Of a DNA stretch of 64,000 nucleotides, positions 31,229 to 46,010 are shown piece after piece (positions within the stretch are counted from its first letter, which is position 1; each line of letters begins with the position of its first letter). The stretch covers positions 412,823-476,822 of the forward strand of contig SLTK01000007.1 in the NCBI GenBank assembly GCA_004347695.1, in the 5' to 3' direction. This stretch comes from Chloroflexota bacterium. GTDB taxonomy: Bacteria > Chloroflexota > Anaerolineae > Anaerolineales > Anaerolineaceae. Position numbers and translations under genes: made by a program. The notes under the pieces were generated by a model, which was not told the origin of the DNA, did no database searches, and was given only the letters and a program-made list of their open reading frames with translations.

Positions 31229-31636
31229 ATGGAAATCCCACGCCACTGGCGATTAAAACAACAACGGTATGCACTGGTCGGTGAAGTTTGCCCGCATTGT
31301 GAGAACAAAATCTTCCCCCCGCGCGACGTCTGCCCGCACTGCGGCAACGACGCCCGCACCACCTTCACCTTCAGCGGTCACGGCAAGATTTTCTCCTTCA
31401 CCACCGTCAGTGACGCGCCGGCCGGCTTCGAGCATAACGCCCCCTATACTGTGGCGCTGGTGCAGTTGGACGAAGGCCCGGTGGTCACCGCCCAGTTGAC
31501 CGACCTGGACGGCCAGGACGTAAAAATCGGTATGCCGGTGGAAATGGTCACGCGCAAGATTCGCGACGACGGCAATCAGCGCGGAATCATTGTGTACGGG
31601 TATAAGTTTAGACCGGTGCTTGCCGGTCCGCGGTAA
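31229..31636 (+). CDS. DUF35 zinc-ribbon / OB-fold acyl-CoA-associated protein
   Basis: A 135-residue protein. An N-terminal helix is followed by a four-Cys zinc ribbon (CPHCENKIFPPRDVCPHCG) and then an OB-fold domain (GKIFSFTTV, GPVVTAQLTD). The C-terminal motif is VYGYKFRPV. In archaea the homologue bridges thiolase and HMGCS and shares their CoA site. Ribosome site AGGAG precedes the ATG. Its last 14 or so codons recur four times downstream as short repeats (41.3, 42.9, 45.1 and 46.0 kb), and the accessory region begins directly after its stop. Confidence 0.92.
   Translation: MEIPRHWRLKQQRYALVGEVCPHCENKIFPPRDVCPHCGNDARTTFTFSGHGKIFSFTTVSDAPAGFEHNAPYTVALVQLDEGPVVTAQLTDLDGQDVKIGMPVEMVTRKIRDDGNQRGIIVYGYKFRPVLAGPR
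31581..31618 (+). repeat. DUF35 3'-end repeat, copy 0 (inside the intact gene)
   Basis: Encodes RGIIVYGYKFRPV. It is the reference copy for the repeats at 41305, 42862, 45060 and 45971. It is followed within 45 nt by an intrinsic terminator, as are three of the other copies. Confidence 0.8.
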
Positions 31637-31657
31637 CCGCAATTTCAATATGAATAT

Positions 31658-31692
31658 TAAAAGCGCTCACCCGATCTGGAGAGCGCTTTTTT
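31658..31692 (+). terminator. terminator of the mevalonate cluster
   Basis: AAAAGCGCTC (31659-31668) pairs with GAGCGCTTTT (31681-31690), with T-run to 31692. Confidence 0.88.
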
Positions 31693-32020
31693 GATTTGAC
31701 TTCAGAGGCGATTGCCAATCTACCGGGCTGCGAACCTCCCTCAGCCCGTGGTTGAGCAAGAAATGCCTTTGATTGAGCAGCTTTTTGGGCTTCGGAGCGG
31801 GTAAATCGCTCATGAAAGTTGGCCGCAAGTATTTTTGATGTAAAATTATTTTGAGGTTGAATCACGCGTGAAAGGTTTGGATAATCAAGTGTTCTTGCAG
31901 TATATGATGTCTAAGGAGTCTAGTTATATGGCAGTATTGCAGTGTATCAATATTCCATATAATTAATAGTTGGACGACATCGCAAAATACTTACGTTACA
32001 TTTCACACAAGGACATGTCA
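31693..32020. other. intergenic stretch at the start of the accessory region
   Basis: No supported gene. A minus-strand frame here (RFTRSEAQKAAQSKAF) has no recognisable family. Base composition turns more AT-rich after about 31850, and codon use in the next gene differs from the mevalonate genes, which fits acquired DNA. Confidence 0.5.
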
Positions 32021-32983
32021 ATGAGTAATTATCTAAAAATTCGTGGCATCGCTGTAGTTTGTATATTAGCTCTAACTGCTTGTGGCGGTCAAATACTGCC
32101 TACTCCTTCGCCAGTACCAACCAATACTCCCTTTCCGACCGCCACTTTTACCCCGCAGCCCACTCATACACCTATACCAACTGTACAACCAACGCTGGCT
32201 CTTGGTGAAAGACAAAAAGTAGATGCCGGAGGATATTTCTTCCAGATGCCGCTCGGCTTTGAATCACAAATCCGCACCACACAAGCAACTATCAATAATA
32301 AAGATAACACCATTCTTATTTCCATGGCCATTGCTCCTCGCAGTGATGATTCTCAAACTGTGGAGACTGTATTAACTAGCTTCTTGGCAAACGTCAGTAA
32401 AAATGTTAAAGACTTTAAAGCTGACAAGCCATACCTTGCCACAGTTGGTAAGATTGATGGTTTGGCAGTAGATGTTGCAGGAACACTAATTGGAGTTAAG
32501 AATACAGGCCGGGTAACTGTTGTTGATTCTGGTCAATCCGGATTTTTCGTTGCATTTGCTTTAGTGGTTGACGGGGCAGATGGAAAGCGGTGGGAATCCG
32601 AAGGTAGCCACGTATTTGATGCTATTATCAGTTCGATTGAATTTTATGAGCCGGTAAGTAGTTCTGCAACTGGCTCATGCGCCATAGCTAGCGACCCAAG
32701 CTATGGCTATACTCAAGAGAATCCCATTAAGGTTGGTGGCGATGCCTTTAACGGACCTCCGCGTGAAAGAGCCTATTTAGATAATCTAGCTGGGCCAAAC
32801 GGCGAAAAAATTTCCTATGAACGAACGGGCTCTAGTGATTTTGGAGATACAATACTCGATGCTTTTGCCATAACAGGTTTAAGCAAAATTGTAACACTTT
32901 ACATTGATGAATATTCATACTCTGAACCACAAGCACCGGTTGGGTTCACCTGTTTGTCTACATTTTCACTTACCAAACCATAG
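32021..32983 (+). CDS. secreted lipoprotein with Pro/Thr linker
   Basis: About 320 residues. Signal peptide IAVVCILALTAC with lipobox Cys, then a 45-residue Pro/Thr linker. A globular part with a PsbP/DUF1795-like look follows (GGYFFQMPLGFESQI at its start and VFDAIISSIEFYEP at its end). A second C-terminal domain of about 90 residues with two Cys (SCAIASDPSYG, GFTCLSTF) completes it. The ATG at 32021 has AAGGA 7 nt upstream; ATG 32015 is too close to it. It is the first gene of the accessory region; a cassette-like attC site follows 20 nt after the stop. Confidence 0.75.
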   Translation: MSNYLKIRGIAVVCILALTACGGQILPTPSPVPTNTPFPTATFTPQPTHTPIPTVQPTLALGERQKVDAGGYFFQMPLGFESQIRTTQATINNKDNTILISMAIAPRSDDSQTVETVLTSFLANVSKNVKDFKADKPYLATVGKIDGLAVDVAGTLIGVKNTGRVTVVDSGQSGFFVAFALVVDGADGKRWESEGSHVFDAIISSIEFYEPVSSSATGSCAIASDPSYGYTQENPIKVGGDAFNGPPRERAYLDNLAGPNGEKISYERTGSSDFGDTILDAFAITGLSKIVTLYIDEYSYSEPQAPVGFTCLSTFSLTKP

Positions 32984-33002
32984 ATCCTGGTAAGCTAAAG
33001 AG

Positions 33003-33133
33003 CCGCCGAACACCGCATGCACCGGACGGCGAGGATTCGTCGCCATTTTCAAGCATTTTCTGGCTTCGAGTTTTTTCTGCTCGCAAACAGAATAAACGCC
33101 CACCCACCTGGCACTAACGCTCACCGCTAGCCT
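33003..33133 (+). repeat. attC-like site a
   Basis: Starts GCCGAACACCGCATGCACCG and ends CACTAACGCTCACCGCTAGC, with inner strings TCGCCATTTTCAAGCATTTT and TTCGAGTTTTTTCTGCTC shared with the sites at 47932 and 48709. Both core boxes are degenerate against RYYYAAC and GTTRRRY, so it may be a decayed or recombined site. Confidence 0.6.
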
Positions 33134-33149
33134 GCTTCAGGAGGATGTA

Positions 33150-33560
33150 ATGCGACCCCTTCGGTATTCCATAAACGTCACATTGGACGGATGCTGCGAT
33201 CATCGTGAAGGAATCGTGGACGAAGACTTGCATCGTCACGCTGCCGAGAACATCGCCCAGGCCGATGCCCTCCTCTTTGGCCGGGTGACTTACGAACTGA
33301 TGGAGGCAGCGTGGCGGCTGCCGGCGCGGACGGGAGTGAAGCCCGATTGGATGGAACCCTGGATGGAACCCTTCGCCCGGACGATCGACGCGGCAAAGAA
33401 ATACGTCGTGTCGAGCACCCTGGAGCGGGTCGATTGGAACGCGGAGCTCGTGCGCGGGGATGTGGGGAAGGTCGTTCAGCAGTTAAAGCAGGAGTCAGGC
33501 AAGGGGCTGTTCGTGGGAGGCGTGAAGCTCCCGCTGGCGCTGGCGGAGCTGGATGATTAA
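33150..33560 (+). pseudogene. truncated duplicate of the RibD-C/DHFR-like gene at 44321
   Basis: Almost identical at the DNA level to 44321-44723, including the upstream GCTAGCCTGCTTCAGGAGGATG. After LPLALAEL the two diverge: here the frame stops after two residues and runs into hsdR sequence, while the other copy continues for about 50 residues with the IDEYEFVVHP strand. The lost part is the C-terminal third of the DHFR fold, so the product is unlikely to work. The junction at about 33552 is also where hsdR loses its 5' end. Confidence 0.88.
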
Positions 33561-45166: not shown

Positions 45167-45201
45167 TTTGCCTGGACAGGTTAGCAAAAAACGATCCTTA
45201 A

Positions 45202-45231
45202 TCCCTGGCAATAAAAATGCCTGGGATTTTT
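45202..45231 (+). terminator. intrinsic terminator after tail copy 3
   Basis: TCCCTGGCA / TGCCTGGGA with one mismatch and a 7-nt loop, then five Ts. Confidence 0.78.
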
Positions 45232-45242
45232 GATATAATTCG

Positions 45243-45272
45243 GTTACCATATTGGTAACATCGTGGTATAAT
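45243..45272 (+). promoter_or_regulatory. higBA promoter and operator
   Basis: GTTACCA-TAT-TGGTAAC (45243-45259) is a perfect inverted repeat covering the -35 box (TTACCA, 45244-45249). TATAAT lies at 45267-45272 after a 17-nt spacer. The predicted start falls on the higB ATG at 45279. HigA-type antitoxins bind such palindromes. Confidence 0.82.
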
Positions 45273-45278
45273 CTTCTC

Positions 45279-45572
45279 ATGAGGGTCATCAGCCGACGCA
45301 TTCTTCGCGAATTCTGGGAAAAGCACCCAGACGCAAGTGTTCCCTTACAAACCTGGTTTCATGATGTGGAGCGCACGACCTGGAACACACCTGCTGATGT
45401 CAAAACAGTCTATAAGAATGCCAGCTTGCTAGCCAATAACAGGGTCGTATTCAATATCAAAGGAAATCATTACCGGTTGGTGGTGGTGGTCGTTTATAAA
45501 CATGGCGTGGTTCACATACGATTTGTAGGAACGCACGAAGAGTATGACCGGATTGATGTGGCCACGATATAA
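45279..45572 (+). CDS. higB: HigB-family mRNA interferase toxin
   Basis: A 97-residue RelE/HigB-fold toxin: MRVISRRILREFWEKHPDA, ADVKTVYKNASLLANNRVVFNI in pieces, and a C-terminal strand VVHIRFVGTHEEYDRID with the typical HEEYD motif. Such toxins cut mRNA in translating ribosomes. The start ATG at 45279 has no ribosome site, in line with a leaderless message. It precedes its antitoxin gene by 12 nt, the usual HigBA order. Confidence 0.92.
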   Translation: MRVISRRILREFWEKHPDASVPLQTWFHDVERTTWNTPADVKTVYKNASLLANNRVVFNIKGNHYRLVVVVVYKHGVVHIRFVGTHEEYDRIDVATI

Positions 45573-45584
45573 GGAGTGTTAAAA

Positions 45585-45998
45585 ATGGAAATCAAACCTA
45601 TTCGCAGCGAAGCCGACTATCAAACGGCATTGAAAGAAATCGAGATACTGATAGAATCTCAGCCTGGCACCCACGAAGGCGACCGGATGGATGTGTTGGT
45701 GACTCTGGTTGAGGCATATGAAGCAAAACACTTTCCGATCCCTGAGCCTGATGATCCGGTAGAGGTGTTGGAATATTACATGGAAAGCCGCGGACTGAGC
45801 CGTTCCGATTTGATTGCATACCTGGGCAGCAAGGAACGCGTTTCAGAAGTGCTAAACCGCAAACGCGGGCTCTCTCTTCAGATGGTCCAGCGGCTACATG
45901 CTGGCCTCGGCATCCCCGCGGATCTCTTGATTGCCAAACAGGGCCATAAAGCTACGTCTATCGTCAAATCGCGGACCAAGTCGCAAGTACGAGTATAA
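45585..45998 (+). CDS. higA: HigA-family antitoxin
   Basis: A 137-residue antitoxin with an N-terminal toxin-binding part (IKPIRSEADYQTALKEIE) and a C-terminal XRE-type helix-turn-helix (LSRSDLIAYLGSKERVSEVLNR). AAGGAG is 8 nt before the ATG. The last 11 residues or so (SRTKSQVRV) are read, out of frame, from DUF35-tail copy 4, so its natural C-terminus was changed by the junction. The DNA-binding domain is complete and should repress at 45243-45259. Confidence 0.9.
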   Translation: MEIKPIRSEADYQTALKEIEILIESQPGTHEGDRMDVLVTLVEAYEAKHFPIPEPDDPVEVLEYYMESRGLSRSDLIAYLGSKERVSEVLNRKRGLSLQMVQRLHAGLGIPADLLIAKQGHKATSIVKSRTKSQVRV

Positions 45999-46010
45999 GT
46001 TCCGCCCACG
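45971..46010 (+). repeat. DUF35 3'-end repeat, copy 4
   Basis: In the DUF35 frame it encodes RGPSRKYEYKFRPRF and a stop. It overlaps the 3' end of higA in another frame. A strong terminator follows at 46038-46072. Confidence 0.76.

Follow-up and report, generated by a model that had tools for sequence, protein, structure and literature searches.

Copies of a DUF35 gene end in an Anaerolineaceae genome as predicted attachment sites of islands probably inserted by a large serine recombinase

Why does the 3' end of a single conserved gene recur several times in the accessory DNA that follows it? The question is raised by a stretch of 64,000 nucleotides from a Chloroflexota bacterium of the family Anaerolineaceae (assembly GCA_004347695.1, contig SLTK01000007.1, positions 412,823 to 476,822 of the forward strand), in the following called the window, where a DUF35 gene is followed by four copies of its own tail. 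An earlier note on this DNA had proposed that mobile DNA inserts serially at this gene end and restores it at each insertion. We conclude that the repeats are very probably attachment (att) sites used by one family of genomic islands, that the predicted inserting enzyme is a large serine recombinase (LSR), and that the 3' end of DUF35 is the predicted attB. The insertion at DUF35 is read from sequence comparisons with related genomes; here G numbers stand for genomes and L numbers for fetched loci, G000 is the window's own genome and G003 is a genome of the same genus.

The DUF35 gene (31229..31636, + strand) encodes a ChsH2-type zinc ribbon with an OB fold (Pfam PF01796/PF12172) and is the last gene of a mevalonate-type cluster (26828-31636) that also holds HMG-CoA reductase, an archaeal-type HMG-CoA synthase and a thiolase-like protein; since it is the end gene of this cluster, restoration of its 3' end would be strongly selected. 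This end reads ...CGCGGAATCATTGTGTACGGG TATAAGTTTAGACC GGTGCTTGCCGGTCCGCGG TAA, where TATAAGTTTAGACC (31601..31614, + strand) is the att core, i.e. the point at which sequence identity switches across relatives, with a native left half and an island right half as predicted for an attL. The right half holds GGTCCGC (31625..31631, + strand), which mirrors the GCGGACC found in the arms of the copies and is designated here the P' arm. The same type of right half stands at DUF35 in G168 and G083 and, 1-2 bases off, in G099, G036 and G097.

The core copies at 41305, 42862, 45060/45151 and 45971 all lie on the + strand and have a left arm (P arm), GCGGACCGAGTCG, in common. A repeat of about 40 bp had been placed at these positions by the earlier note and we confirm it there: three copies are full (41305, 42862, 45971) and one is split, and the 32-base pattern of arm plus core, with at most 3 mismatches, occurs twice in the window and in none of 100 shuffles. 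The 13-base arm alone, with at most 2 mismatches, occurs 7 times, four of these being the copies (shuffle mean 1.69, largest 6). Copy 1 (41305..41359, + strand) consists of a P arm at 41305-41317, a core at 41328-41341 and a P'-like arm up to 41359; since a left arm together with a decayed right arm fits the expectation for two elements joined end to end, it reads as an element-element (P-P') junction. Copy 2 (42862..42898, + strand; P arm 42862-42874, core 42885-42898) is followed by a native-like tail and a terminator. Copy 3 (45060..45162, + strand; P arm 45060-45072, left core half to 45084, right half from 45151) is split by a 66-base stem-loop-rich insert (45085-45150), the first base of which completes an in-frame stop. 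Copy 4 (45971..46007, + strand; P arm 45971-45983, core 45994-46007) is the last one recognised in the window.

Translated in the DUF35 frame, copies 1, 2 and 4 give RGPSRVYWYKFRPVGLGTAK, CGPSRMYRYKFRPVMR and RGPSRKYEYKFRPRF, each closed by a stop. Unlike the RG(P/I)SRxYxYKFRPV-like reading formerly given to all copies, copy 4 does not end in RPV. A terminator-like hairpin lies 3' of DUF35 (31659..31690, + strand, folding z -5.2), and hairpins with T runs follow copies 2, 3 and 4 (z -5.5, -3.5 and -8.8); no such hairpin was found behind copy 1 (z +0.4). Folding thus agrees with the earlier claim of an intrinsic terminator at four of the five places. The sole entry of a simple consensus terminator scan was behind copy 4, on the - strand.

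Inserts rich in G+C, stem-loop or minisatellite-like (e.g. CACAGCACTCCCGTTGGTCG units), were counted by eye in 12 of 56 arm+core sites, where they sit at or a few bases from GGGTA/TAAG, near the expected crossover (window 45085-45150; L032:4813, L041:12445, L073:16937, L088:2464, L123:8466, L124:1729 and 4127, L127:8779 and 9847, L130:7601, L133:7598). DUF35-tail remnants or the same inserts also stand on contig C3 of G000 at 163.4 kb (L071), 382.0-384.9 kb and 386.7 kb (L031), upstream of DUF35 and distant from it, one of them being fused to an attC-like left half.

Which agent could have placed the copies there? The earlier note saw no recombinase in the window and left the agent unnamed. 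The window indeed holds no LSR, but relatives do, and an LSR is the likely agent. A motif scan revealed open reading frames (ORFs) of about 540-616 aa with a serine recombinase signature directly behind DUF35, and convergent with it, in G047, G060, G103, G104 and G163; in these genomes, and partly in G033, the LSR gene overlaps the 3' end of DUF35 or ends near it. All five proteins tested (540-616 aa) contain the Resolvase (N-terminal) and Recombinase domains of Pfam, and the zinc ribbon PF13408 was detected in three of the five at E<0.001, with one of the five above the curated cut-off. At E 1e-20 an LSR match was found in 11 of 147 genomes of the family, and in nine of these it adjoins DUF35, as a long protein in G103, G104, G163, G063 and G033 and as a C-terminal piece in G081, G102, G148 and G157 (the last truncated by the contig end). 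The two remaining matches lie on a contig other than that of DUF35 (G099) and in a genome without a full DUF35 gene (G009).

A wider scan with one genome per species gave 54 loci, i.e. 49 after removal of five Firmicutes loci at 26-30% identity. By name, 47 of these were taken as Chloroflexota, among them Desulfolinea and Herpetosiphon, which we presume to belong there, and two (L162, L182) come from a metagenome-assembled genome labelled Pseudomonadota. The LSR stands at a core in 33 of the 49 loci (25 at a DUF35 gene, 8 at a DUF35-tail core); in 12 the contig ends within 400 bp and in 4 neither applies, L161, a chance core, having been counted by hand among the latter. Two tandem LSRs are carried by G060 and G390. 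Two different LSR genes in tandem at attL, an arrangement that recalls ccrA-ccrB, were seen at L060:5741-9140 and in L164, L165, L168, L169, L170, L174 and L176.

To locate the junction, 72 bases to the left and 30 bases to the right of the core were compared among the 26 loci whose LSR exceeds 300 aa and whose flanks are complete. For LSR pairs that are at least 70% identical and whose left halves are <95% alike (41 pairs) the identity was 76% on the left and 97% on the right, while for pairs <70% identical (283) it was 65% and 28%, respectively. In other words, right-half identity tracks LSR similarity, so the DNA after the core goes with the recombinase and the DNA before it with the host gene. 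When the ends are sorted by type of right half, left/right identities are 83/97% (A), 84/100% (B), 90/97% (C) and 75/95% (D), the right-half values being high by construction because the types were defined by their right halves; the grouping by LSR identity is the independent test of the junction. The 64 untyped DUF35 ends show 65% identity on the left and 33% on the right. All six P' right-half types tried supply an in-frame stop for DUF35. The right halves of types D and F hold GGTCCGC, and in type B elements the arms are, by eye, not symmetric about the core. The dyad GCGGACC-N40-GGTCCGC gives many chance matches in a free search and was taken into account solely at cores.

Serial insertion is seen in G047, a one-contig genome. 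Its DUF35 core (3086182) has a right half of type B together with the LSR of that element; 45.5 kb on, at 3131706, a left half (P) passes through the core into a right half of type C (P') with an LSR pair behind it, i.e. two LSR elements stand head to tail and are joined at the core. LSRs behind gene-less cores are found twice in L183. The earlier note had suggested a comparison of strains with and without the island, and G003 lacks parts of it: it is without the HigBA unit and its flanks are joined at the core (L032 4855/4860, equivalent to window 45102/45996), and it is also without units 1 and 2, with 54 bases of its own tail between L032 2108/2163 (equivalent to window 31624/42950). Serial insertion at the 3' end of DUF35 with restoration of the gene end is thus supported, at the level of sequence, by the LSR genes at this spot in relatives, the recombinase-type-specific right halves, the stops in six types out of six, the tandem of G047 and the unit missing between cores in G003.

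The search for the repeat in relatives, also suggested by the earlier note, points the same way. The arm pattern gave 76 matches in 50 of the 147 family genomes, part of which must be chance, since the reversed arm pattern gave 22 matches in the same genomes (counted from the table). The position test took in the 42 matches, in 28 genomes, that share a contig with a full DUF35 gene, the other 34 lying on contigs without one; all 42 are on the same strand as DUF35 and downstream of it, 41 of them within 50 kb. A match 192 kb from DUF35 in G000 is probably chance. Multi-copy arrays occur in G036, G020, G158 and others.

The following course of events is proposed. The LSR would join the attP of a circular island to the 3' end of DUF35, the exchange taking place inside the core, around GGGTATAAGTTCCG. 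To the left of it the gene would stay native (B), while its right half would be swapped for the P' half of the island, which would provide codons and an in-frame stop; the displaced DUF35 end with its terminator (B') would come to lie at the far side, behind the P arm of the island. Later insertions at attL or attR would leave internal P-P' junctions. An integron-bearing unit would have the order P' half, terminator, intI, attI, cassettes with attC, spacer, P arm. An exact crossover dinucleotide, excision and transfer are presumed in this scheme, and the window's own units, which have no LSR, would have been moved by an LSR acting in trans or by one since lost.

Islands at tRNA genes, to which the earlier note had likened the locus, share this logic of gene-end restoration, and a family of tyrosine-recombinase islands inserting at the gene end could in principle leave the same picture, although the data lend no direct support to this. 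That part of the likeness stands, but the agent appears to be an LSR and not a tyrosine integrase of the tRNA-island type: in PF00589 searches of 16 genomes there was no Phage_integrase match in the fetched DUF35 regions, the nearest one on a DUF35 contig being 210 kb off (G013, by eye). A tyrosine recombinase as the agent is disfavoured by these searches and we regard such a family as extremely improbable.

Several observations weigh against insertion by an LSR. At E 1e-20 no LSR match was found in G000, the window included; of the 50 family genomes in which the arm pattern matched (in some cases by chance), no more than 6 have any LSR match, and no LSR was seen paired with type F, the right-half type of the window itself. 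Type F is also less alike than the other types, with identities of 68% on the left and 73% on the right (6 hosts). A recognisable P' arm is absent from copies 2 and 3. DUF35-tail remnants without the arm lie about 60 kb and about 280 kb upstream of DUF35 on its own contig, and a second class of copies, with long DUF35 coding stretches (G022, G017, G020 and the window's own genome), is not producible by one crossover at the core. The right halves of copies 2 and 3 look like native DUF35 ends of other species, and for these two copies the earlier suggestion that they were once real 3' ends from different hosts may well be apt.

Some of the long-stretch copies are near the local allele, as would be expected if foreign DNA ending in a DUF35 3' end had entered by homologous recombination and left duplicated ends behind. 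It is difficult to account in this manner for the arm-class copies, which share little with DUF35 beyond the core and its flanking codons and whose arm is absent from DUF35, or for an identity switch at one fixed point in many hosts; homologous recombination is therefore a very improbable source of the repeats. Distal copies with long stretches are located at L049:16917-17084 (- strand), L040:6386-6756 and L048:17565-17684 (- strand), and are near the local allele in G022 and G020.

The accessory DNA of the window is probably in part an integron cassette array. Directly behind DUF35 there is a remnant of the C-terminal end of intI (31718..31758, - strand; the last 41 bases of the gene), whose local alignment to the intI of G168 has a score of 42 that none of 500 shuffles reached, and a weaker N-terminal remnant (31769-31792; score reached by 4 of 500 shuffles); the window has no intact intI. 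An attI-like site, TATAATTAATAGTTGGAC, follows at 31958..31975 (+ strand; alignment to G168 reached by 1 of 500 shuffles), and the same site is found upstream of intI in G168 and G083 and behind DUF35 in G002. attC-like sites on the + strand were found by pattern at 33005..33132 and, between an epimerase and a RibD-domain cassette, at 44173..44303; a third (44982..45039; left half by pattern, right half by reading) ends in GTTAGAC 20 bases 5' of the arm of copy 3, its motif lying at the distance that recurs among the arm sites. Pattern matches past copy 4 (47932-48064 and 48709-48833) suggest that cassette DNA continues beyond it. All these attC calls are matches to loose, uncalibrated patterns, and the attI call rests on pattern and one alignment; a strict attC finder (paired R''/R') recovered no site in the window from this set, and a single plausible one in G168. 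The putative cassette DNA past copy 4, the intI remnant and the upstream tail remnants had not been visible to the earlier note.

Could the copies then be integron recombination sites themselves, with IntI using the DUF35 tail as an attI-/attC-like site, so that the region would be a mere cassette array at a chromosomal integron? The decayed intI and attI directly behind DUF35 would fit this, as would the intI at the same place in G168 and G083, the attC-like sites throughout the region, and the fact that G003 and G000 differ from an attC boundary on (right half at 43071..43092, + strand). Moreover, 22 of the 56 arm sites have an attC R' motif that begins 28-29 bases 5' of the arm; 23 motifs fall into the window of 16-36 bases upstream and 1, 0, 0 and 0 into the next four windows, with a motif chosen after seeing the sites and a few chance matches among the 56 (e.g. 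L082, L094). Yet no attC precedes copy 4 in the HigBA unit, which is nevertheless absent between cores in G003, and the right halves follow LSR similarity. Furthermore, 33 of 49 LSR loci are at a core, but none of the 28 integron-integrase loci that were retrieved from other families of the order. We consider this explanation improbable. As integrons are common in the order (126 of 400 genomes over the cut-off) and none of the 28 loci is at a core, integrons look like a subset of the cargo rather than the mechanism.

In the family, 4 of 147 genomes pass the integron-integrase cut-off (TIGR02249), and in two of these intI lies just behind DUF35: in G168 as an open frame (481 bits, ~80 bp behind), in G083 broken (287 bits for the larger piece). 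In G083 the 3.96 kb between the cores L125:1438 and 5399 contain, in this order, a tail with terminator, the broken intI, an attI-like site, two ORFs, an attC-like site, a spacer and an arm. In L201 a P-P' core without a DUF35 body is followed, 110 bp on, by an open intI frame that is uninterrupted by stops and 60% identical to that of G168. Family intI genes over the cut-off are also located away from DUF35, at G031:C1:41984-42922 and G104:C78:912-1844.

The cargo of unit 1 (33553..39556, + strand) is a type I restriction-modification system (hsdR in two ORFs, hsdM and a piece of hsdS) around an AbiEi/AbiEii pair. The split hsdR spans 33553-35806, with a CarboxypepD_reg match in the middle of its second part that is odd for a restriction subunit. 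Unit 4 (45252..45998, + strand) carries a HigB toxin (HigB_toxin PF09907) and a HigA antitoxin that matches PADLOC PD-Lambda-2_B, and small enzymes are also encoded in the window. The start of the RibD-domain cassette is duplicated (33124-33423 and 44295-44594, 99% identical over 300 bases), the first copy being shortened. Among the genes of the first element of G047 are metal and respiratory ones; the 20 of its 38 ORFs that were scanned yielded neither phage nor conjugation domains.

Among known systems, the nearest are the staphylococcal and enterococcal cassette chromosomes (SCC, ECC) with their CcrAB or CcrC recombinases. According to PMC6222049 these elements have LSRs encoded by ccrAB, insert into the 3' region of rlmH and show direct repeats of ~50 nt, variable cargo and, in 16 of 32 elements, multiple attR sites. 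Common features are an island that carries an LSR and sits at the 3' end of a conserved gene, which is restored (for DUF35, insertion as deduced from the sequences), tandem or composite islands with several att sites (two elements in G047, four copies in the window) and the tandem LSRs of G060 and G390, which resemble ccrA-ccrB. In contrast, the target is DUF35 and not rlmH, the phylum is another one, integrons are found inside, and the LSR lies right at attL, convergent with the target gene and overlapping it in several cases. For the two LSRs tested the nearest NCBIfam models were CcrA, XisF, CcrB, CcrC and YneB, all far under their cut-offs, with the Ccr models scoring 33-60 bits against cut-offs of 700-900. 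With a recombinase below the Ccr cut-offs and another gene as target, the DUF35 islands are not members of SCC/ECC; the best reading of the sequences is that of SCC/ECC-like LSR cassettes with a different target, some with integrons. Chromosomal integrons and attC clusters without an integrase (CALIN) are similar in their TIGR02249 intI (G168), attI-/attC-like sites, cassettes and cargo of toxin-antitoxin and defence genes; here, however, the integron is bounded on the outside by half-sites of LSR type, and it may also follow a gene-less copy of the site. Phage serine integrases have the same domain order, the best phage rows being ~28% identical, but all 405 matching phage records are <60% identical; the same holds for the matches in all 91 plasmid records. 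No relative was found in viral contigs, and no match to DUF35 in phages.

In the open-access literature searched, no work on large serine recombinases of Chloroflexi was found; for DUF35 with serine recombinase, the passage of PMC8371274 proved to concern DUF3504, and titles and abstract starts contained nothing on a link of LSR attachment sites with integrons. A passage of PMC8618304 lists Chloroflexota among integron-bearing phyla, and PMC12772301 is, in its excerpt, about sul4.

These results name a likely agent and target for a hot spot of repeated island insertion in a class that is represented here mainly by metagenome-assembled genomes. The candidate attB/attP/LSR sets, i.e. several LSR types with different ends and one target, are possible integration tools. 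LSR cassettes linked to integrons would also offer a testable route for the movement of chromosomal integrons. It is conceivable, with a likelihood that we put a little below even, that such integrons are site-specifically mobile units: flanked by an LSR half-site on either side, intI, attI and the cassette array would move together in the manner of SCC, driven in trans by the LSRs of co-resident elements, each landing restoring DUF35. If this were true, integrons so far regarded as sedentary would possess a distinct, dedicated vehicle.

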